This document shows positions 35,204 to 48,222 of a stretch of DNA of 49,604 nucleotides, piece after piece. Numbering within the stretch: the first letter of the stretch is position 1; each line of letters starts with the position of its first letter. Under the pieces are notes generated by a model that did not search any database, had not been told where the DNA came from, and was given only the letters and a program-made list of their open reading frames with translations. A program made the translations under genes and the position numbers. Source of the stretch: Caldifarciminota bacterium SM23_42 (lineage in GTDB: Bacteria > Hydrothermota > Tepidihabitantia > SM23-42); contig LJUJ01000019.1 of NCBI GenBank assembly GCA_001303785.1, positions 1-49,604 on the forward strand, written 5' to 3'.

Positions 35204-36475
35204 ATGGCATTAATCATGGCCTTAGTTCTCAGTATATCAGCGGGCGACACACTATATTTTACCGTGGACGAGGCAATCGACTATGCTTTGCAGAACAACC
35301 CTGAGATCGAGCAATTATCGATCGAACTTCAAAAATCAGAGGAACAAGTTGGCCAGACAATCTCAGCCTTCTACCCCAGCATTTCTGCGAATGGTTACTA
35401 CGCCTACGTCACTGATGTGGCGGTAATTGAGTTTGATAGCATCCCCATACCATTTGGCGCCCATGAAAACTACAATGTACAACTATCACTGCAGCAGGTT
35501 ATCTTTGCCTGGGGAAAATTGTACAACGCTTATAAGATATCAGATCTCGCCAGCGACATCGCCGAATTGAATCTATTGAGGAAGCGACAGGAAGTACGTT
35601 ATTCGGTGGCTGACGCTTTCTACACATTGTTGGTGCTCGAAGAATATCTCAATCAAGCACGGGAGAACCTCGCGCAACTCCAGCGGTACACGGCTGTCGT
35701 CGAGACCCGATACAAGGCAGGACTGGTCTCTCAATTTGATCTGCTACGTGCCCGGGTGCAAGCGGAAAATCTAAAACCAACAGTCATCAACACAGAAAAT
35801 ACGCTCAACCTAGCGCGCGAAGGTTTCAGACTACTGTTGGGGATGGACTTGCAGACAGAGTACGTATTATCCGGTGAACTGAGAGCGGTCGAAGAGGAGT
35901 TCTCCCTCGACCAACTAACTACCAGCGCCCTTCAGAATCGCGCTGAAATCAAGAATCTGAAGAAGGCAGAAAGAATTGCCCAACTGAATCAAGCTATTGC
36001 GCGCCGTGCGAATCTGCCGAGCCTCGTTGGCGGAGCGTCATACGAGCGTAGAAAGCCCTTCAGCTTCACCGGTGACGAGTGGGGCTCAACCATGACCTTT
36101 AATCTGGGCTTCGAGTGGCCGATTTTCAGCGGCTTCGGTAATCTACACAAAAGCCGAGAAGCTTCTCTTATGATCAAGGAAGCACGTCTGGCCCTCGAGA
36201 ATTTGGAAAGAGCTATTGTGGTCGAGGTTAAGCAAGCTTATTTAAGCTTCCTGGCGGCGAAAGAAGCAATTGGCGCTGCCGAGGACAATGTCGAACAAGC
36301 CGAGAAGTCAGTAGAAATCATTGCAACGAGATACAAGAACGGGTTAGCAACAAATCTTGAGGTCCTGGATGCCCAGCTTGCCATGATGCAAGCACAGGTG
36401 AACTATCTTCAGGAGGTCAAGAATTACAACACATCATTGGCCGAAATTTATAAGGCAATTGGTAAGGAGGAATAA
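35204..36475 (+). CDS. TolC-family outer-membrane efflux protein
   Basis: This 423-residue protein starts with a signal peptide (MALIMALVLSISAG) and shows the two-fold TolC pattern. That is TVDEAIDYALQNNPEIEQL near the N-terminus, long helices with QARENLAQLQRYTAVVETRYKAGLVSQFDLLRAR, and the second repeat ENVEQAEKSVEIIATRYKNGLATNLEVLDAQ (given here as EQAEKSVEIIATRYKNG). It forms the outer-membrane channel for the RND pump encoded downstream. GGAGG lies 7 nt before the ATG. Its stop abuts the adaptor start. Confidence 0.92.
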   Translation: MALIMALVLSISAGDTLYFTVDEAIDYALQNNPEIEQLSIELQKSEEQVGQTISAFYPSISANGYYAYVTDVAVIEFDSIPIPFGAHENYNVQLSLQQVIFAWGKLYNAYKISDLASDIAELNLLRKRQEVRYSVADAFYTLLVLEEYLNQARENLAQLQRYTAVVETRYKAGLVSQFDLLRARVQAENLKPTVINTENTLNLAREGFRLLLGMDLQTEYVLSGELRAVEEEFSLDQLTTSALQNRAEIKNLKKAERIAQLNQAIARRANLPSLVGGASYERRKPFSFTGDEWGSTMTFNLGFEWPIFSGFGNLHKSREASLMIKEARLALENLERAIVVEVKQAYLSFLAAKEAIGAAEDNVEQAEKSVEIIATRYKNGLATNLEVLDAQLAMMQAQVNYLQEVKNYNTSLAEIYKAIGKEE

Positions 36476-37357
36476 ATGCGCAAGTGGTTGATTATCATAA
36501 TTGTCATTGTGGTTCTGACCGCTGCAATCATGTTACGCGTGGGCGCAAGTCAGCGTAAAGGACAGAAAGAAGAAGTTACACAAGTTATCCCCGTCGAGAT
36601 AGTAACTGCGACCAAAGGAGATGTAGTAAGTACTTGTGAGGTGTTGGGAACGATTGTCGCAGACAAGACGGCTCAGGTGTTTCCGGAAGCGATGGGTCGC
36701 GTCATGCGCCTGCTGGTCAAGGAAGGCGCGTATGTGAAGAAAGATGCCAACATAATGGCAACGCGTAACGAAACGGTCGGTTTCGAATATGAAGAAGGTT
36801 TCATAAAATCCCCGATCAGTGGTTACGTTGGTGAATTAATGGTTGACGTCGGATCCATGGTCTCACCTCAAGCTCCTGTTGCGCTAATCGTTGACTATTA
36901 TCGTGTGAAAATCGAATTCCACGTCGCCGAGGTCAATGTCGGATGTGTACAGATGAATCAAAAGGTGAATATTGTCGTTGACGGAATCGGCGAGAATTTC
37001 ACAGCACGTGTTTCGGAAATCAGCCCGGTAATCGATGCGATGACACGTACGGCAGCGGTCAAGGCAGTTACTTCAAACCCTAAGAAATTATTACAACCTG
37101 GAATGACGGCGCGAGTACAAGTAAATCTCGGCGAAAAGAGTGGTGCACTTCGTATTCCAAAAGACGCCTTGCTGGACAGCTATCTATTCGTGGTCACAGA
37201 TAGCACTGCGAAACGTCGTGATGTAGAGGTGGGATTAATTGGTGACGCTTACGTAGAAATACTCGAAGGCTTAACGGATGGAGAGAAAGTGATCGTAGTT
37301 GGTCAACAAAGACTTGCTGGCGGTGAAAAAGTCAATCCCATAGCCAGGGGTGAGTAA
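36476..37357 (+). CDS. RND efflux periplasmic adaptor (membrane fusion protein)
   Basis: An N-terminal membrane anchor (WLIIIIVIVVLTAAIMLRV) is followed by a barrel-sandwich/lipoyl domain (GRVMRLLVKEGAYVKKDANIM, then IKSPISGYVGELMVDVGSMV). Beta-barrel and membrane-proximal domains complete it (NPKKLLQPGMTARVQV, LTDGEKVIVVGQQRL). At 293 residues it is short, with a reduced coiled-coil hairpin. It starts directly at the TolC stop, and its own stop shares a base with the RND start. Confidence 0.92.
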   Translation: MRKWLIIIIVIVVLTAAIMLRVGASQRKGQKEEVTQVIPVEIVTATKGDVVSTCEVLGTIVADKTAQVFPEAMGRVMRLLVKEGAYVKKDANIMATRNETVGFEYEEGFIKSPISGYVGELMVDVGSMVSPQAPVALIVDYYRVKIEFHVAEVNVGCVQMNQKVNIVVDGIGENFTARVSEISPVIDAMTRTAAVKAVTSNPKKLLQPGMTARVQVNLGEKSGALRIPKDALLDSYLFVVTDSTAKRRDVEVGLIGDAYVEILEGLTDGEKVIVVGQQRLAGGEKVNPIARGE

Positions 37358-40300
37358 TGAAGATAACTGAAGTTTCAATCAGAAGACCGCTTTCGGTCGC
37401 CATGGTGTTCCTGGGTATAATCCTCTTTGGTTTCATCTCGGTTACGAACTTGCCTGTTGCACTTTACCCCGACGTTTCCTTTCCTATGATGATCGTTCTA
37501 ACGGGTTATTCCGGGGCTGGCCCCGAGGAAATCGAGACGAACATAACCGATCCTCTTGAGCAAACCTTAGGTACAGTAAACAACCTGGAAAAGATAACCT
37601 CAACCACATCGGAAAACATCTCGACCATCATATTGCAGTTCGATTGGGGAACAGACCTCGATGCAGCATCTAATGACGTCCGTGACCGCCTCGGAATCTT
37701 GATCCCCTACTTACCGGATGATGCAGACTATCCGATGATTTTCAAGTTTGACATATCGCAGCAACCGGTCGTGATGTACACGATAGGTGGTGATATCGAT
37801 CCGCTGGAACTTGATGAAATTGCCGATGACGTTGCTGACAGAATCCAACGTGTCGGTGGTGTTGCTGCATCATATGCATTGAGTGGCACGTTCCGCGAAA
37901 TACAAATAATCCTGAACCCCTTAAGACTGAAGGGTACAGGTCTTACACCCGACCAAATCATCGGTGCTTTACAGGCGCAGAACGTAAATTATCCTCTGGG
38001 CAACATAGTCACCGGCACGAAAACCTACATTCTTCGAACCATTGGACAATATGAGGACCTCGACGAAATACGCAATACTGTTGTTGGTAGCAGTAATGGA
38101 GTCCCGATATACCTTTCTCAAGTTGCTGACGTCAAATTCCAGGCATCCGAACAAACGTCGATCTCACGAACGAATGGAGTTCCATCGATATGGGGCATGG
38201 CGCAGAAACGGACAGATGCCAACGCGGCAAATGTTGGAAATAGCGTAGCTACCGAACTTGAAGAAATAAGGAAAGACCTCCCCCCAGGTGTACAAATAGA
38301 CGTAATATTCAACCAAGCCGACTTCATCATACGCTCCGTACGCAGTACTGCTCAAACCCTAATCATGGGGGCGATTCTTGCAGTCATCGTCCTCTTTCTG
38401 TTCCTGGGTAGCTTCCGGTCCACCATATACATGGCCGTCGCGATACCAGTCGCCGTCTTCTTTGCACTTTTCTTCATGTATTTCTTTAACATGAGTCTCA
38501 ACATCATTTCGCTCGGCGGTCTCACTGTTGCGATCGGTATGGTGCTCGATTCCGCGATTGTCGTATTTGAATCAATATTCAGAAAGAAGGAACAAGGCAT
38601 AGAGCCAGTGCAGGCTGCCTGCCAAGGTACAGCAGAAGTGGGACCAGCAATCACTGCCTCGACACTGACCACCGTTGCCGTCTTCTTGCCCCTCCTTCTG
38701 GTTAGCGGCTTCGCCTCGATATTTTTCAGACCACTCGCCCTAACCGTGACCTTCGCCCTTATCTCATCTCTCGTTGTAGCACTAACTATTATCCCTATGC
38801 TAACCGTGCGTTTCGGGGCAGTTAAGCGACGCGATGACCGAAGGGGTTTCAGCAAGAACCTGGGTGCTTTTTATGAAAGAGTTGAGGGAACATACACCCG
38901 GCTCATTCGCTGGGCACTGGGTCACAGGAAAACGGTCATTATCGGAACCGTCGCTGTGTTTTTCGCAAGTCTCATTCTCATCCCCTTCATCGGCACTGAA
39001 TTGAGCCCTGACATCGACCAGGGCGAGATTATTGTTAATGCCGAAATGCCGGTCGGCACCAATCTCTGGGTGACTGATTCGGTAGTGAAGAAACTGGAAC
39101 AAATAATCGTCGAGGAAGTTCCTGAGATAGAAATACTCTCTACTTCAATCGGCGCCGGTGAGGGTGGCTTTACCAGCCTTTTCGCGGCCACCTCGGGTCC
39201 ACATGCAGCGCAACTATGGCTCGAATTGGTCAATCGCGAGGAAAGAAGCCGGTCGGTGAAAAAGATTCAGGAAGACCTGCGACCAAAAGTGATGAACATC
39301 ATTCCAGGACTCAAGGTAACATTCGGCGGAAACGAATTTGAAATGTTTGGTGGTGGTTCGGCGATCGAGGTAAAGATCATCGGTTACGACCGTGAGAAAG
39401 CCCGCGAAATCTCTGAAGAGCTCGTGGAAAAAATGCAGGGTGTCAAGGGACTCGTCGACCTTGAATCCAGTCTAAGCGAAGGTAAACCTGAGCTTCGTCT
39501 AATTATCGATCGGCGGAAAGCAGCGAACTTTGGTTTAACGCCGTATGATATCGGAAACGTGCTTCGTTCACGCGTCGAAGGCATCATTGCCAGTCAGTAT
39601 CGCAAAGAAGGTGACGAATACAACATCAGAATCATGCTCGACGAAGAGTATCGAGATGAGTTGAAGAAAATAACAGCGATGACGATCACCACTCCCGTTG
39701 GCGATGTACCAATCCAGAATTTCGTCAAAGACACAATCGCCGTGGGCCCCGTAGAGATTGAACACGAAGATACCAAACGTCTGGTAACGATCACTGCCGA
39801 TGTTGAAGGCCGGGACGCGGGAAGCGCCGGTGCTGATGTGCAAGGAATTATCAGCGCGACGCAAATACCAGCTGATTTCACGCTTGAAATGGGCGGTGGG
39901 TTTGAGCAACAGGTGGAAACCTTCCGCGATCTATTTTTCGTCATCATTCTGGCCATTATTCTCGTGTACATGATCATGGTCGGACAATTCGAATCTTTCA
40001 GGGAACCGTTCATCATCATGTTCACGATTCCATTGGCAATCATCGGTGTCTTGTGGATGCTGTTCTTCACCGGCACAACCATCAACATGCAGAGCCTGTT
40101 GGGCGTGCTGCTTCTCGGCGGTATTGTAGTGAACAACGCGATCGTCTATATCACGTACACGAATCAGCTGCGCCGTCAGCAGAATATGGCCTGTATTGAC
40201 GCAGTTATCGAAGCGGGCAGAGTTCGCCTCCGGCCGATATTGATGACCGCGTTTACGACGAGTTTCGGGCTCGTTCCGATGGCATTGGGCATCGGCGCCG

Positions 40301-40452
40301 GTAATGAGCTCCGTGCACCAATGGCACGTAGCGTAATCGGCGGACTGATGCTTTCGACATTCTTGACCCTAGTCTTCATTCCAGTTCTGTATACAATCTT
40401 CGAACGCAGAAAGAACAAGTCCGGCGGCAAAGCCAAGAAGGAATCCAAATAA
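37357..40452 (+). CDS. RND-family efflux transporter (AcrB/HAE1 type)
   Basis: This 1031-residue inner-membrane pump has the RND start ITEVSIRRPLSVAMVFLGIILFG, two large periplasmic loops and twelve expected TM helices. In TM4 the usual Asp-Asp pair is Asp-Ser (GMVLDSAIVVFES), and in TM10 the usual Lys is Asn (GGIVVNNAIVY). The proton relay therefore differs from E. coli AcrB, as in many HAE1 pumps of FCB-type bacteria. Together with TolC and the adaptor it forms a complete tripartite exporter under TetR control. The substrate cannot be predicted. Confidence 0.95.
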   Translation: MKITEVSIRRPLSVAMVFLGIILFGFISVTNLPVALYPDVSFPMMIVLTGYSGAGPEEIETNITDPLEQTLGTVNNLEKITSTTSENISTIILQFDWGTDLDAASNDVRDRLGILIPYLPDDADYPMIFKFDISQQPVVMYTIGGDIDPLELDEIADDVADRIQRVGGVAASYALSGTFREIQIILNPLRLKGTGLTPDQIIGALQAQNVNYPLGNIVTGTKTYILRTIGQYEDLDEIRNTVVGSSNGVPIYLSQVADVKFQASEQTSISRTNGVPSIWGMAQKRTDANAANVGNSVATELEEIRKDLPPGVQIDVIFNQADFIIRSVRSTAQTLIMGAILAVIVLFLFLGSFRSTIYMAVAIPVAVFFALFFMYFFNMSLNIISLGGLTVAIGMVLDSAIVVFESIFRKKEQGIEPVQAACQGTAEVGPAITASTLTTVAVFLPLLLVSGFASIFFRPLALTVTFALISSLVVALTIIPMLTVRFGAVKRRDDRRGFSKNLGAFYERVEGTYTRLIRWALGHRKTVIIGTVAVFFASLILIPFIGTELSPDIDQGEIIVNAEMPVGTNLWVTDSVVKKLEQIIVEEVPEIEILSTSIGAGEGGFTSLFAATSGPHAAQLWLELVNREERSRSVKKIQEDLRPKVMNIIPGLKVTFGGNEFEMFGGGSAIEVKIIGYDREKAREISEELVEKMQGVKGLVDLESSLSEGKPELRLIIDRRKAANFGLTPYDIGNVLRSRVEGIIASQYRKEGDEYNIRIMLDEEYRDELKKITAMTITTPVGDVPIQNFVKDTIAVGPVEIEHEDTKRLVTITADVEGRDAGSAGADVQGIISATQIPADFTLEMGGGFEQQVETFRDLFFVIILAIILVYMIMVGQFESFREPFIIMFTIPLAIIGVLWMLFFTGTTINMQSLLGVLLLGGIVVNNAIVYITYTNQLRRQQNMACIDAVIEAGRVRLRPILMTAFTTSFGLVPMALGIGAGNELRAPMARSVIGGLMLSTFLTLVFIPVLYTIFERRKNKSGGKAKKESK

Positions 40453-41650: not shown

Positions 41651-41980
41651 TTACCCGGGTAGCTCCTTAAATATCTTCTTCATCCTTTGGCTGTATTCGT
41701 GAAATGCCTTTCTCCCCTCTTTAGTAAGACTGAGTAGTGTGCGGGGTATTTTCTTAACGAACTTCTTGTCAATATTCACATACCCAGCTTTTTCTAATTT
41801 CATCAAATGGGATGAAAGATTACCTTTGGTCAGATTTGTCTGTCTCAAGAGGAACAGAAAATCAGCGCTCTCGACGACGTAAAGGTAAGATAGAATCAAT
41901 AGTCGCGCAGGCTCGTGGACAACCCGGTCAATGTCAACAATCTTCTGGAGTCCGTGCGCCCCTTTCCTGCTAACCGGCAT
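41651..41980 (-). CDS. Winged-helix transcriptional regulator
   Basis: This 109-residue protein has an ArsR/HTH_34-type winged helix: HEPARLLILSYLYVVESADFLFLLRQTNLTKGNLSSHLMKLEKAGYV (recognition helix TKGNLSSHLMKLE), followed by the wing and a C-terminal helix that probably dimerises. GGAGG lies 6 nt before the ATG. It is the last gene of the membrane-paralog operon and overlaps the preceding gene by 11 nt. By analogy with similar regulator/membrane-protein pairs it may repress the operon through the direct repeats at 44906-44936; this is inference. Confidence 0.87.
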   Translation of the reverse strand: MPVSRKGAHGLQKIVDIDRVVHEPARLLILSYLYVVESADFLFLLRQTNLTKGNLSSHLMKLEKAGYVNIDKKFVKKIPRTLLSLTKEGRKAFHEYSQRMKKIFKELPG

Positions 41981-42575
41981 CCGAAGCCTCCTCAGCCTGC
42001 CGTGGATTTCTCTTTAAGAAATCGAGGAATATCTTAAAGCCGATTATCGAAATAACAGCACCAAGAATAACGAAATAATACTCAATGCTGCGCGGCGCCA
42101 CCGACATGACAACCAATCCACCCAGCCCAATAACCACTCCGTACACAAGCCAGCGATATACTTTGTGCTCATGTGCAAGCAATCCAAATATGACAGGGAT
42201 AAAGAGAACCGCTGCTATCTTAATGACATTCTGCCAATTTTCCTGAACTGAGAACCCGAGTAATAAGAAAATCAGAGCCGTTACCAAAGTGAGAAGCGCA
42301 ATTCCTATAATGCATACTAATAATATCCTTGTCGCTGTAGCGCCCCGCCTGGCCATGCGCGCATAACCGATACGCGGATATGTCGTCCGCTTTCTGACCG
42401 TTTCAATGAGCACTGGACCGATCACTATCCAGGGTATATTGAGCAAAAGACGGTACTCAATCACAAAGTATGTTAGCAAAAGATGCACCCCCAAGAGAAT
42501 GTCCATTAGTCCATCCTGAAAATTCAAATGCCGGGTCTTACGTTCTATATTTCCGATGTCGACCGATGGGTTCAT
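41970..42575 (-). CDS. Multi-TM membrane protein, paralog D of the cluster
   Basis: The start is the ATG at 42575 because AAAGGAG lies 6 nt upstream. An N-terminal amphipathic segment (IGNIERKTRHLNFQDGLMDILLG) is followed by about six TM helices. Between TM2 and TM3 comes the basic PRIGYARMARRG, and the protein ends with FLKRNPRQAEE. The same layout appears in the three proteins encoded upstream, with low overall identity. There is no catalytic motif I recognise. It is translationally close to the winged-helix gene downstream (11-nt overlap). Confidence 0.75.
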   Translation of the reverse strand: MNPSVDIGNIERKTRHLNFQDGLMDILLGVHLLLTYFVIEYRLLLNIPWIVIGPVLIETVRKRTTYPRIGYARMARRGATATRILLVCIIGIALLTLVTALIFLLLGFSVQENWQNVIKIAAVLFIPVIFGLLAHEHKVYRWLVYGVVIGLGGLVVMSVAPRSIEYYFVILGAVISIIGFKIFLDFLKRNPRQAEEASDAG

Positions 42576-42604
42576 TGATTGCTCCTTTCGCGGCAGGGTA
42601 CATC

Positions 42605-43216
42605 TCATTTGCTACTTGCATCACATGTCTTTCCATCTGGCAAAGGATATCTGTGCAAGAAGCTTCTCAATTGAACAATACCGACAACCAAGAATACTGC
42701 GCCTAATCCGCCCCATTGAAAAGCTGAAACCGTGTTTGGATCGTACCCGGATGATGTAAAGATAAGCCCAATGATTCCACTTACAAATACAAAAAAAGAC
42801 ATAGCATAATCAATTCTAATCTTTGTGCGACAGTGGGCAATTGTGAATAATGCACCAGTGGGAATGATGACAACGATAAGCGGCGTGAATGTCTTAAGTT
42901 CTATAATGCTTACGGCAAAAAAGAGTGATAGAAATATTAGAAGATAAAGACCAGTAAACAGGACTTCTTTTCTATCAGAATTTATTGAGAACTTCGCGTA
43001 ACCTGTGCGGTTATAAATGAATTTTCTTCTTAATATCCCTTTCAAAATGAGACTCAGAATGGCCATAGCCAAAAGCACCGCCAAGAAAATCATATCAATC
43101 AATATCAGAGGGAAAAGAATAAGTACAATGCCAGCAAGAATTTTTTCTAAACCATCCTGAGACATGGCGCGGGATGCTTTCTGTTTGACTCCCTCGATAT
43201 TAATGGATCGGGACAT
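42605..43216 (-). CDS. Multi-TM membrane protein, paralog C of the cluster
   Basis: I start it at ATG 43216, one base after the upstream stop, with GAGG 6 nt ahead. The N-terminal SINIEGVKQKASRAMSQDGLEKILAG is the divergent form of the cluster's DGLxDIxLG segment. After two TM helices comes RKFIYNRTGYAKF, the counterpart of PRIGxVxF in the others, then more TM helices and RSFLHRYPLPDG. It is the most diverged of the four paralogs. Function unknown. Confidence 0.75.
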   Translation of the reverse strand: MSRSINIEGVKQKASRAMSQDGLEKILAGIVLILFPLILIDMIFLAVLLAMAILSLILKGILRRKFIYNRTGYAKFSINSDRKEVLFTGLYLLIFLSLFFAVSIIELKTFTPLIVVIIPTGALFTIAHCRTKIRIDYAMSFFVFVSGIIGLIFTSSGYDPNTVSAFQWGGLGAVFLVVGIVQLRSFLHRYPLPDGKTCDASSK

Positions 43217-43217
43217 C

Positions 43218-43877
43218 CTACACCTCGCTGCCAGATACATCTTCACTCCGGATTGAGTACTTGCGTAGAAAGCGGGCTAGTACAACACCTCCCATAATCA
43301 GGACAATGATCGCCGGTATACCAAACGCGACGAAAGTCAGATCTTTATGTGTTAATGCTGTCAAGACGATATCCAGTGGAACACATATGGCAAACATCAC
43401 GCCGATCAGATAAAGCCTATTAAAACGCAGGAAGTACGCAGCCAAGCTGAACACGATGATCATATTACCTACCCATATGGCTGGTATCAACAAATCCATC
43501 GACATCGACCGAGATACAAGATCTTTAGCACTGAGGACCGCAATAACAAAGGCTATCATGCCAACAAGAACTGATACCGCGAAGACAACTCTGGTTTTCT
43601 TCTTTCTTGCTACCCCTGTGGGACCAAAATTCACATGGCCAATCCGTGGTCTTGTAATAAAGCGCTTCCCCATAACAAGGAATAGAAATGCTGCCCCAAC
43701 TAACAATACATAGATAATCATGGTCGTAACGTGAGATATCCCGATATCGGAGAACAATGCACCGACTCCCATCACCAATAGTAACGACCCCAGGTACATA
43801 TCCCAAAGGCCGTCCTCAAAAAACGACGTCCAGACCTTACGTTCAAGTTGTTTCAGGTCAATGCTTTGTTCTGCCAT
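43218..43877 (-). CDS. Multi-TM membrane protein, paralog B of the cluster
   Basis: AAGGAGG lies 6 nt before the ATG. The N-terminus (MAEQSIDLKQLERKVWTSF, then EDGLWDMYLG) is nearly the same as that of paralog A (44268-44891). After TM2 it has RPRIGHVNFGPTG with a run of lysines, then four more TM helices and a cytoplasmic tail starting RFLRKYSIRSED. Its start overlaps the two-TM gene by 20 nt. The positive-inside rule puts the basic PRIG loop in the cytoplasm. Function unknown. Confidence 0.78.
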   Translation of the reverse strand: MAEQSIDLKQLERKVWTSFFEDGLWDMYLGSLLLVMGVGALFSDIGISHVTTMIIYVLLVGAAFLFLVMGKRFITRPRIGHVNFGPTGVARKKKTRVVFAVSVLVGMIAFVIAVLSAKDLVSRSMSMDLLIPAIWVGNMIIVFSLAAYFLRFNRLYLIGVMFAICVPLDIVLTALTHKDLTFVAFGIPAIIVLIMGGVVLARFLRKYSIRSEDVSGSEV

Positions 43878-44238
43878 TCTTTACCTCCTTGGCTGCAAGA
43901 TACCTACCGTATGACATATATAAAACCGACAATGTAACAAGTAAAAGCGTAAATGTAACTAACATATAAACTGAATCCCCATAGTATACGAAAGCCGACT
44001 TCTCCTCTATCGCATCTTTGCTTCTGGTATTTAAAGGACGCTGTGCTTCGACGACTACTCCCTCAATCATACCTAACCATGCCTCATCCTGATATTCATA
44101 TCTGGGAGCTGTCACATTAATCTCTGGCAACCTGCCAATTGAATCTAATCCTCGCAGATTTACCGATGCTCCTGAATTCACCAGAAACGCCCCCAAGATG
44201 ATAAAGGCAATCGATATTTGTATCTTCTGTATTAACAT
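43858..44238 (-). CDS. Two-TM protein with a duplicated VTAPR-like motif
   Basis: I start it at the ATG at 44238, which has AAGGAG 7 nt upstream. The protein has one N-terminal TM helix (ISIAFIILGAFLV), about 80 extracytoplasmic residues, a second TM helix (VYMLVTFTLLLVTLSVLYM) and a basic tail. The loop holds LPEINVTAPRYEYQDEAW and, about 20 residues later, GVVVEAQRP, which look like two copies of one beta-strand-plus-turn motif. It lies between paralogs A and B and is unrelated to them in sequence, so it is a likely partner. I do not recognise the family. Confidence 0.72.
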   Translation of the reverse strand: MLIQKIQISIAFIILGAFLVNSGASVNLRGLDSIGRLPEINVTAPRYEYQDEAWLGMIEGVVVEAQRPLNTRSKDAIEEKSAFVYYGDSVYMLVTFTLLLVTLSVLYMSYGRYLAAKEVKNGRTKH

Positions 44239-44267
44239 AAAATATCTCCTTTTTTCATTGACCACAA

Positions 44268-44891
44268 CTACGTATTCTTCATCCGCGGGTTCTCACGCAG
44301 CAAACGCAAAAAGAGAATAACACCAGTTAAGATAATAACACTAGAGGTGATACCAAAAGTAACCGGAAAACCGTGGTGAGGTATTCCAGCACTCAAATGT
44401 AACCATTCACCAATCGGTATGCACAAAGCGATAAGCAGCCCGTAGATGTACAACCGTATAACCCCTAAGAAATAGCCGGCAAGCCCAAAGCATATAAGCA
44501 CAACCGCTATGAAGCGAAGATTGTGCACCCATGATTGTGTCATGCTGCCCTTGAAAGACGTGATACCCAAAATGAGGCTGACTGATAATGCGACAAAAAT
44601 TAGAATATTGAACTTTGCCAGCCGCTTTCTGCGTGTCTGTCCAAAACTTACCAGCCCGAGCCGGGGAATCACAACATATCTCCTTAGCAGCACAATTAAG
44701 GCGAAGATTACAGCCCAAAACGGAACAAACGCAGCCGAGCTCCAGAAATCTCCCAAGCCCATTCTATTAAGGAACGGCGCCAGCGCAAACATCAGTATTA
44801 TGCAACCCAGGAATATATCCCATAAGCCATCGGCATAGAAAGAAGTCCAGACCTTGCGTTCGAGCCGTTTCAGGTCGATTTGCTGCTCCAT
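44268..44891 (-). CDS. Multi-TM membrane protein, paralog A of the cluster
   Basis: This is the first gene of the operon. I use the second ATG (44891), which sits 6 nt after GAGGAGG; the first (44897) is too close to that site. The N-terminus reads MEQQIDLKRLERKVWTSF, then YADGLWDIFLG. Two TM helices, the basic IPRLGLVSFGQTRRKR loop, four more TM helices and the tail LRLLRENPRMKN complete the shared layout. No enzymatic motif is visible. Transport, envelope-stress sensing or signalling are all possible. Confidence 0.78.
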   Translation of the reverse strand: MEQQIDLKRLERKVWTSFYADGLWDIFLGCIILMFALAPFLNRMGLGDFWSSAAFVPFWAVIFALIVLLRRYVVIPRLGLVSFGQTRRKRLAKFNILIFVALSVSLILGITSFKGSMTQSWVHNLRFIAVVLICFGLAGYFLGVIRLYIYGLLIALCIPIGEWLHLSAGIPHHGFPVTFGITSSVIILTGVILFLRLLRENPRMKNT

Positions 44892-44905
44892 GATCATCCT
44901 CCTCT

Positions 44906-44936
44906 TTGCATACTAGTCTTCATTGCAAACTAGTCT
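44906..44936. promoter_or_regulatory. Direct-repeat operator candidate at the membrane-protein operon
   Basis: TTGCATACTAGTCT (44906-44919) and TTGCAAACTAGTCT (44923-44936) differ at one position and are spaced 17 bp apart. Each contains the palindrome ACTAGT. They lie at and just downstream of the predicted transcription start, where a bound protein would block elongation or initiation. Confidence 0.65.
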
Positions 44937-44941
44937 GCTAT

Positions 44942-44969
44942 ATTATAATGAAAAAATCGGATTTGTCAA
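44942..44969 (-). promoter_or_regulatory. Promoter of the membrane-paralog operon
   Basis: On the minus strand TTGACA (44969-44964), a 16-bp spacer and TATAAT (44947-44942), both perfect matches to the sigma70 consensus. Confidence 0.85.
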
Positions 44970-45456: not shown

Positions 45457-48222
45457 TTATCTAATCAGCAGTAATTTCTCTGTAGCGCTATAATCCCGCG
45501 CCTGGAGTTTTAGGAAGTAGATACCGCTGCTCAGTTTACGATTAGCTTGGTCTGTGCCGTCCCAACTAATCTGCGTACGGAGTACAGCGTTAGCCACAGG
45601 GCTGAAATCTTTCACCAACCTGCCCGTAGCATCATAGATTTTCAATTCGTAATCACTAGCATCTACCCACTGAAATCTGATATCTGTTTTATGCCGGAAT
45701 GGATTCGGGGAAATCTGTAATAGGCGTTGAGCGTAAGGCGTCAAGCATTGGGCGTCTTCTTCCACTCCCACTGAAGGGTAGAATTTCCCCCAAATGCGCG
45801 TCGTGTTATAGATCTTGCCGCCATACTCGCCGGTCCATCCAGAATAGGTAATAAGAAATTGATCCTCTGCACCGTGTGCCAGGGTTGGTGCAATCTGGTC
45901 ACCTGGTCGAAGAGACACGCTGAAGGTATCAATCATTACGCCTGAAGTGTTTAGTTTTGCGCCATAAATATCCCACGAGCCGTTGCGGTCATCTTGCCAG
46001 ACAACAAGGTAGTTTGTGCCATCGAATGCAACTGCTGGATAACTTTGGTCATTTGACGCTGTCGAGATGGGAATTCCGTCTGGATCGAGGACATTTCCGG
46101 ACGGAGCCACCCGGGCACCGTAAATATCAGAATCTGATCCACTGCGACCATCCTGCCATACAACCAGATAGTTTGTGCCGTCAAAGGCTACTGAAGGATA
46201 CCCTTGCTCTTCTTCGGCGGTTGAGATAACGAAGCCAGCGGGATCAAGCACAGTTCCGGCTTGTGTCACCCGGGTCCCGTAAATATCACGATATGAAACA
46301 CCGTAACTACCTCGAAACACGACCAGATAGTTGGTGCCGTCAAAGGCAACTGAGGGATACAAGCTGTAGGGATCCGCTATTAGAAATCCACCTGGGTCCA
46401 TTGACCAACCGCCTTGATGCACACGTGCACCTTCAATCTTGCTCCAAGGTGGAACCTTATGCCATGCAATCAGGTAGTGTAAGCCACTTGAGGCAACCGA
46501 GGGACAATCGCACATCCACCCCTCGTCGATTTCAATCTCTGCTGTGTCAAGGATATTGCCGTTTGGGGCTATTCGCGTACCATGAATGCCCCCTGCATCT
46601 CCACCGCGGTTGTCAGACCATGCAGCAAGATAGCGACTTCCATTGAAGGCAATTGCGGGAAACCGTTGTTTGCTTGGATCAGTTGTGACAGGGATTCCAG
46701 TTGGGTCAAGAATATTTCCAGATTGACCCACGCGGGTGCCATATATATCAGAATGATCATTGCGTGTGTCTTCCCATACTACCAGATAATTCGTGCTATC
46801 AAAACTAACCGCGGGATTTCTTTGTTCATTTATATCAGTTGACATGCTGATGTTGAGGGAGTCAAGGATAGCCCCAGATTGACCTACCCGGGTGCCGTAA
46901 ATATCCTTATTGTCATAATCATTGCGACTATCCTCCCACAAAACCAGGTAGGTTGTAGCGCCAAAGGCTACTGAAGGACAGCGTGGCTCGCCATATCCAA
47001 GCCAGCCGCTTCTTATGACAATGCCAGTGGTATCAAGAACCGTGCCGGATGTATTGACCCGCGCACCCCAGACACTAGCGGGGTAATATATTCCACAGTC
47101 CTGCCACACGACCAGATAATTGGTGCCGTCAAAGGCAACCGAACCAACCCACTGACTTTCTCCAATGGTGCAGATGCCAATGCCTTGAGGGTCAAGAACA
47201 TTGCCGGCTATATCTACCCGCGCGCCATAAACGTCCGAAGTCCAATAAGCACGAGGATGTTTTCTTGACCACACGACCAGATAGTTGGAACCATCAAACG
47301 CAATTGAGGGAGAGTATTCATAATATTGAGGGGGTGGGGATGAGACTACGATTCCCGCTGTATCAAGGACACTCCCTGACTGGTTCACCCGGGCACCACA
47401 AATATAAGAACCATGACTCCAGACTATCAGAAAGTTTATCCCATCAAAGGCAATTGAAGGGCATGCCCGGTAGTATGTAGCGGTTGAAACGGTAATCGCG
47501 GTTGAATCCAGGACACTCCCGGATGCATCCACTCGTGCACCGCATATATCAGGTTCATATGGGTCATTTCGGTTATCCTGCCACACGGCCAGATAGTTGG
47601 TGCCGTCAAAAGCAACTGAAGGTGTTAATTGGTCGTTTGCGGCTGTCGAGATGGCGATCCCAACCGGGTCAAGGACAACACCAGACTGAGCTACTCGGGT
47701 TCCGTAAATATCAGAAGATGAATCAGCACGCCAATCTGTCCATACGACTAGAAAATTGGTGCCATCAAAGGCAACTGCAGGTGTTGATTGTTCATTTACG
47801 GCTTTAGAGATGGCGATCCCGGCTGGGTCAAGGATAGTCCCATCTTGATCTACCCGGGTTCCATATATATCCCATGAGCCGTTGCGATCATCTTTCCATA
47901 CAACCAGGTAGTTTATACCGTCAAAGGCAACCGAAACAGAACATTGGTGATTTATGGATGGACCATAATTGACATTTGTGTCAATCAGAAACTCACTATC
48001 TCTTAGCCATTCATTTACTATTGTATTTTCAAATCGGTTGGATTCATTGGAATGCGGCGTGGTAGTATGATGTGATACCTGTTCGACGATTTGAGTTACA
48101 TCAAAGAACGCTTTCGAATTCTCCAAAGATGAAATTGGTTCCTGGGTAAATACCAATGTAGTGGCGATGAAAAATGACATCACTATTCCCAAAAGGGAAA
48201 TACTATTACTATATTGCCTCAT
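45457..48222 (-). CDS. Secreted 14-repeat protein (probable double beta-propeller) with a sorting-like tail
   Basis: The 921-residue protein begins with a signal-like LLGIVMSFFIATTLVFT. About 50-residue repeats follow, with consensus PSVAFDGTNYLVVWQD...DIYGTRV...G.VLDP.GI.IST. I count thirteen clear units and one degenerate unit (PTLAHGAEDQFLITYSG), fourteen in all, which could form two seven-bladed propellers. The C-terminal 75 residues are a FlgD/type-A sorting-like domain (YDATGRLVKDF, SSGIYFLKLQARDY, KLLLIR). Function unknown; adhesion or cell-surface binding is a guess. GAGGAGG lies 5 nt before the ATG. Confidence 0.85.
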   Translation of the reverse strand: MRQYSNSISLLGIVMSFFIATTLVFTQEPISSLENSKAFFDVTQIVEQVSHHTTTPHSNESNRFENTIVNEWLRDSEFLIDTNVNYGPSINHQCSVSVAFDGINYLVVWKDDRNGSWDIYGTRVDQDGTILDPAGIAISKAVNEQSTPAVAFDGTNFLVVWTDWRADSSSDIYGTRVAQSGVVLDPVGIAISTAANDQLTPSVAFDGTNYLAVWQDNRNDPYEPDICGARVDASGSVLDSTAITVSTATYYRACPSIAFDGINFLIVWSHGSYICGARVNQSGSVLDTAGIVVSSPPPQYYEYSPSIAFDGSNYLVVWSRKHPRAYWTSDVYGARVDIAGNVLDPQGIGICTIGESQWVGSVAFDGTNYLVVWQDCGIYYPASVWGARVNTSGTVLDTTGIVIRSGWLGYGEPRCPSVAFGATTYLVLWEDSRNDYDNKDIYGTRVGQSGAILDSLNISMSTDINEQRNPAVSFDSTNYLVVWEDTRNDHSDIYGTRVGQSGNILDPTGIPVTTDPSKQRFPAIAFNGSRYLAAWSDNRGGDAGGIHGTRIAPNGNILDTAEIEIDEGWMCDCPSVASSGLHYLIAWHKVPPWSKIEGARVHQGGWSMDPGGFLIADPYSLYPSVAFDGTNYLVVFRGSYGVSYRDIYGTRVTQAGTVLDPAGFVISTAEEEQGYPSVAFDGTNYLVVWQDGRSGSDSDIYGARVAPSGNVLDPDGIPISTASNDQSYPAVAFDGTNYLVVWQDDRNGSWDIYGAKLNTSGVMIDTFSVSLRPGDQIAPTLAHGAEDQFLITYSGWTGEYGGKIYNTTRIWGKFYPSVGVEEDAQCLTPYAQRLLQISPNPFRHKTDIRFQWVDASDYELKIYDATGRLVKDFSPVANAVLRTQISWDGTDQANRKLSSGIYFLKLQARDYSATEKLLLIR

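Follow-up and report, generated by a model that had tools for sequence, protein, structure and literature searches.

Operon Layout and the Winged-Helix Regulator

The window analyzed here is a stretch of 49,604 nucleotides from Caldifarciminota bacterium SM23_42 (contig LJUJ01000019.1), a candidate division WOR-3 metagenome-assembled genome (MAG; contig 8). On its minus strand it carries an operon of six genes in the order P1-VT-P2-P3-P4-WH; the nearest named relatives are WOR-3 bacteria. The open reading frame (ORF) calls, in which neighboring genes are separated by short gaps or overlap, reproduce the ORFs, order and overlaps given in an earlier note that was made from the letters of the window. 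The features, which include proteins with several transmembrane (TM) helices, are as follows.

44964..44969, minus strand: -35 hexamer TTGACA, conserved in relatives
44942..44947, minus strand: -10 hexamer TATAAT, with a 16-bp spacer to the -35 hexamer
44912..44934, minus strand: putative operator ACTAGTTTGCAATGAAGACTAGT, 23 bp, an imperfect palindrome with two ACTAGT half-sites, directly downstream of the -10 hexamer
44268..44897, minus strand: P1, 209 amino acids, helix and six TM helices, DGL/PRLG family
43858..44265, minus strand: VT, 135 amino acids, signal anchor, VTAPR-type extracytoplasmic repeat, C-terminal TM helix and basic tail
43218..43877, minus strand: P2, 219 amino acids, P1 family
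42605..43246, minus strand: P3, 213 amino acids, GTG start, P1 family, matching predicted helix order
41970..42608, minus strand: P4, 212 amino acids, P1 family; overlaps both P3 and WH
41651..41980, minus strand: WH, 109 amino acid winged-helix regulator, Pfam HTH_34 (PF13601), cysteine-free; proposed autorepressor

The promoter (TTGACA-16-TATAAT) matches the sigma-70 consensus at 12 of 12 positions. Purifying selection acts on all six genes, with ratios of nonsynonymous to synonymous substitution (dN/dS) against near relatives of 0.09 for P4, 0.16 for P2, 0.21 for P1, 0.29 for P3, 0.35 for VT and, at a dS near saturation, 0.02 for WH.

The last gene was already recognized as a winged-helix protein, which the match to HTH_34 bears out (98.6 bits against a cut-off of 27; E 2e-28). 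WH is related to PH1061 (PDB 1UB9; phmmer E 1.3e-6), which is likewise a winged-helix HTH_34 protein, with a solved structure. Unlike the WH module, PH1061 stands as a hypothetical protein, and we know of no partner or DNA site for it. The PadR score of WH (20.3 bits) is below its cut-off of 27, and HTH_34 is far better. An identity as an ArsR/SmtB metalloregulator was considered and rejected: the NCBIfam HTH_metalloreg score is 23.5 bits against a cut-off of 55, and a Cys/His metal site of this type was found neither in the window WH, which has no cysteine, nor as an invariant cysteine in the alignment. The open-access literature that was searched held nothing relevant on PF13601/HTH_34, with no mention of PF13601 in any paper, or on the operator sequence, and the open-access papers on CreD and ArsR that were searched do not describe a pair of a membrane gene and WH.

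The Conserved Two-Gene Unit

Comparison of gene neighborhoods indicates that the conserved unit is one membrane gene with WH directly after it, and that the operon of the window is an enlarged version of this undescribed two-gene module, which occurs across many bacterial phyla and also in archaea. Among 301 Chloroflexota genomes searched, 16 hold the membrane protein family, and each of these 16 has WH immediately after the membrane gene; the same arrangement is seen in an Acidobacteriota locus, while a Lokiarchaeota MAG has two membrane genes and then WH. When the survey was anchored on WH (WOR-3 and Chloroflexota), an ORF with at least three TM helices was found directly upstream at 51/58 loci and directly downstream at 8/58, and 36 loci match the P1-P4 family profile; these counts are descriptive, the loci being related to one another. 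In WOR-3 relatives WH stands last, after a variable set of membrane genes that ranges from P3 alone in L036, through P2 and P3b in L040, to five or more genes in L028. Beyond WOR-3, a single membrane gene with WH is the usual form. The note's reading of these genes as one coherent operon is upheld: the operon is conserved and has a dedicated regulator. WH, however, is its constant partner and not an addition that closes it.

The pairing extends beyond this family. Plasmid homologs of HTH_34 (32–55% identity) in Bacteroidota, Actinomycetota, Alphaproteobacteria, Thermomicrobia and Haloarchaea are also preceded by small hypothetical proteins, most of which have three to six TM helices and which are usually of a second, unrelated type; a tblastn search of plasmids with one member of the P1-P4 family gave no match. 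This second set of small multi-TM partners, which may be one family or more, comprises L126-L133, L156, L158, L169, L170, L195 and L199. Several of them begin with a helix and carry a GxxxxxWG motif within TM1, and Pfam gave no match for L126-L132, the ones scanned. In Bacteroides finegoldii the regulator is directly followed by creD, annotated as a cell envelope integrity protein, which is a weak pointer to envelope integrity.

One archaeal-labelled record should be read with care. Locus L040 (LSSI01000054.1, labelled Thermoplasmatales archaeon SM1-50) has a WH that is 83% identical to that of the window and a bacterial TTGACA/TATAAT promoter with the WOR-3 operator, and it is probably either a WOR-3 contig that was mis-binned or the result of recent transfer. 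The case for the module in archaea depends on the records of Natronosalvus and Halostagnicola and, with less certainty, on the Lokiarchaeota MAG.

The Operator

The operator-like repeat that the note had placed at the head of the operon is the best match in the window to an operator of the whole family, of the type ACTAGTTTGTAnTACAAACTAGT. Cleaner palindromes are present in relatives, such as ACTAGTTTGCAATACAAACTAGT in L029, ACTTTGTATTACAAAGT in L047 (Dehalococcoidia) and GGAGTACTTTGTATAACAAAGTACTCC in Thermomicrobium, and the operator usually starts 37–42 bp after TTGAC. The motif was first spotted by eye; a position weight matrix was trained on those loci and then scored on 42 other promoters. 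A site at p<=0.02 was found in 19/42 of these held-out promoters, compared with about one expected from dinucleotide shuffles, although four of the 19 are two near-identical pairs. The held-out loci in which the operator recurs include Thermomicrobium, Bacteroides, Actinomyces and a haloarchaeon.

Within the window, 44912–44934 is the single best match, with 4 mismatches against 7 for the runner-up, and exact copies of GCANACTAGTCT in the 2.5-Mb genome are limited to the two half-sites of the operon's operator. Since the only exact half-sites lie in its own promoter, the regulator seems to act mainly on the local operon, whose products would then be the output. The operator presumably lies over the transcription start, a position that fits a repressor of its own operon. 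Taken by itself, autorepression of the operon by WH is thus very probable.

The P1-P4 Membrane Protein Family

P1-P4 are ancient paralogs of one family. They are 209–219 amino acids long and have in common an amphipathic N-terminal helix, a DGLxDxxLG motif, a PR(I/L)G loop and an (F)LRxxPR tail; invariant columns are D23, G24, G31, R79, G81 and G192. AlphaFold models of P1 (pLDDT 84, pTM 0.77) and of the divergent P3 (pLDDT 81, pTM 0.72) agree in one short N-terminal helix followed by six TM helices. The single layout that the earlier note had proposed for the four proteins is therefore well founded, and so is its view that they are too diverged for recent duplicates. Identity to P1 is 34% for P2, 28% for P4 and 22% for P3, and a genome-wide query with P1 matches only P1, P2 and P4, all within the operon. 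In the tree, P1 groups with a Chloroflexota protein (support 100/99), its orthologs being found in WOR-3 and one Anaerolineales genome (L066), and the P2 clade includes archaeal-labelled, Acidobacteriota and Chloroflexota proteins; since P1 and P2 group with proteins of other phyla, the paralogs are older than the genus.

By the positive-inside rule both termini are inside, with 17–19 Lys and Arg residues inside and 1–3 outside; this result covers P1, P2 and P4, since TM helices of P3 were run together by the simple scan. In an alignment of 62 members, conservation is concentrated on the cytoplasmic side (N-terminal helix 1.74 bits, DGLxDxxLG 2.40, PR(I/L)G loop 1.95, second loop 1.63 and C-terminal tail 1.84). 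The external loops are the least conserved parts (0.78–0.90 bits), and no strongly conserved polar residue was found in the TM cores. This pattern is better explained by a surface for binding on the cytoplasmic side than by a path for a substrate or a site for an external ligand.

As the note had already stated, the proteins cannot be assigned to a described transporter or sensor. Neither Pfam, which covered 25 family members, nor NCBIfam gave a match, and a Foldseek search against solved structures gave nothing at E<=1e-3. The best structural match (VIA; Z 8.3, root-mean-square deviation 8.5 over 113 residues) is within noise for helical bundles. Weak, single-member matches below cut-offs to Yip1 (E 0.0075, P4 only), BacA, Orai and holin were discarded, and no transporter or enzyme assignment came out of these searches.

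A Proposed Circuit and its Alternatives

The own operon being the main predicted target of WH, the membrane proteins must be the output. They are also the sole constant partner of WH and their conserved side is cytoplasmic, which makes them the best candidates for the sensor as well, and the two-gene module probably senses the state of the cell envelope. We infer a circuit in which WH would bind the palindrome downstream of the -10 hexamer and repress its own operon, while the six-TM proteins would sit in the inner membrane with the N-terminal helix, DGL motif, PRIG loop and C-terminal tail as their conserved cytoplasmic face. A perturbed membrane, or an amphiphilic toxin or antibiotic, may change the state of the membrane proteins, which would then keep WH at the membrane, so that repression is lifted and the additional membrane protein produced could protect or remodel the membrane. 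In WOR-3, several diverged paralogs and VT would feed one repressor, perhaps broadening the signals or the outputs. What the sequences themselves establish is that the pairing, the promoter operator and the cytoplasmic face are conserved and that purifying selection acts; repression, sequestration, the kind of signal and a protective output are inferred. We give this reading, with the membrane partner as both sensor and effector, a probability of roughly 0.5.

The closest known system is SdpI/SdpR of Bacillus subtilis, in which SdpI responds to its ligand by sequestering SdpR, an autorepressor, at the membrane and in addition confers immunity (PMC1626106). The likeness is that a polytopic membrane protein shares a two-gene operon with an autorepressor, and that the conserved palindrome downstream of the -10 hexamer is a putative repressor operator in the own promoter; here, however, the repressor is of HTH_34 type, the membrane gene comes first and no toxin gene was found beside the module. 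Homology to SdpI (PF13630) was rejected, as hhalign of the family profile against 25 SdpI proteins gave a probability of 1.7%, compared with 99.7–99.9% within the family, and Pfam detected no SdpI domain in 25 family members. In the HAAS-PadR dyad a membrane protein whose N-terminal part is helical and cytoplasmic is always found beside a stand-alone winged helix-turn-helix (wHTH) protein, and the dyad was proposed as an alternative to two-component systems that works similarly to SdpI/SdpR (PMC11237479). The pairing of a cytoplasmic N-terminal helix with a stand-alone wHTH is alike, but the models here have one short helix before TM1 instead of a three-helix GxP domain, the regulator is HTH_34 and not PadR, and membership in HAAS was rejected because the P1-P4 family has no HAAS, DUF1700, DUF1129 or DUF1048 Pfam match. 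The LltR operon of Listeria monocytogenes also combines a wHTH repressor with a multi-spanning membrane protein, a DUF1700 protein of unknown function (PMC6624303); its repressor is of the PadR type, and homology of the DUF1700 protein to P1-P4 was not found.

Several observations weigh against the proposed circuit. WH was not found near the distant family members L037 and L038, the region upstream of the Lokiarchaeota genes yielded no operator, and 23/42 held-out regions have no operator at p<=0.02, in part because other genes may precede the tested membrane gene in its operon. In addition, the second partner class (L126, L127 and L132, for example) has no detectable similarity to the P1-P4 family (hhalign probability under 4%), so a common docking surface is not obvious.

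Another explanation is that the sensor is WH itself, with a small and probably hydrophobic molecule as its signal, and that the membrane proteins are only a regulated output for export or immunity, as in efflux operons controlled by ArsR or MarR. Many wHTH repressors bind ligands directly, and an efflux operon of the resistance-nodulation-division (RND) type adjoins convergently in several relatives. Yet WH is a bare wHTH of 109 amino acids with neither a cysteine nor an added ligand domain, the TM cores have none of the conserved polar or charged residues of a transporter while conservation is cytoplasmic, and the same regulator is kept with unrelated membrane partners, which leaves direct sensing rather unlikely. 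The ATP-binding cassette (ABC) transporter that follows the module in Thermomicrobium and the size of the proteins (six TM helices in about 200 amino acids), which could suit permease subunits, would fit a multi-subunit transporter for a specific substrate; such a role is very improbable, as neither an ATPase nor a binding protein is among the six genes and no similarity to known transporters in Pfam or to solved structures was detected. The earlier note suggested that each paralog probably has a role of its own, as in a hetero-oligomeric membrane complex. The great age of the paralogs, their orthologous groups across genera and the purifying selection on all of them agree with this, but the set and number of paralogs vary from one to at least five (L036, L040 and L028 above) and one gene with WH is usual in other phyla, so a hetero-oligomer of fixed composition is improbable.

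We can tentatively suggest that HTH_34 and its multi-TM partner form a third, undescribed minimal class of transmembrane signalling beside SdpI/SdpR and HAAS-PadR. This class would span bacteria and archaea, with a near-universal operator ACTAGTTTGTAnTACAAACTAGT / AGTACTTTGTAnTACAAAGTACT and at least two unrelated partner families, and in WOR-3 several sensor-effectors and an exported VTAPR-repeat protein would converge on one repressor. A common nameless pair, annotated as a hypothetical protein and a transcriptional regulator, would share a single regulatory logic whose DNA switch can be predicted. HTH_34 proteins can thereby be tested across phyla with one oligonucleotide, and culturable hosts, among them Bacteroides, Thermomicrobium and Actinomyces, allow work on the membrane families as candidate envelope sensors.

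VT and the Neighboring Genes

VT, described earlier as a two-TM protein with an extracytoplasmic loop embedded among the paralogs, has that topology: a signal anchor, the loop and a second TM helix. It is an optional accessory limited to P1-type genes, present in 6/6 operons with P1 and in 0/4 without it. Its extracytoplasmic segment belongs to a 22-residue repeat, [LM]PEVxVTAPRYExEDxAWSG, which Pfam does not recognize in VT. The repeat occurs in 24/147 genomes of the WOR-3 phylum, mostly in the family of the window, with up to eight matches per genome there, and often adjoins regulators. Its carriers, at 43858–44265 of the window and in L097-L120 and L202-L213, include short proteins with a signal anchor, next to TetR or ArsM-like genes, and proteins of about 450 amino acids that bear it at the N-terminus and lie downstream of extracytoplasmic function (ECF) sigma-like and zinc-finger anti-sigma-like genes. 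As a lead only, the repeat looks like a TonB box with the beginning of a plug domain after it; the genome encodes three TonB_C-domain proteins. Through VT, the operon may be linked with the outer membrane or the periplasm.

An RND efflux operon lies at 35204–40452 of the window, convergent with the operon, and encodes an outer-membrane factor-like protein, an adaptor-like protein and a pump of 1031 amino acids; this arrangement, or a pump gene of RND size, also adjoins the operon in L028, L030, L031, L033, L034 and L035. At 45457–48222 of the window is a secreted protein of 921 amino acids with VAFDGTNYLVVWxDxR repeats and a FlgD-like or sorting-type C-terminal domain.

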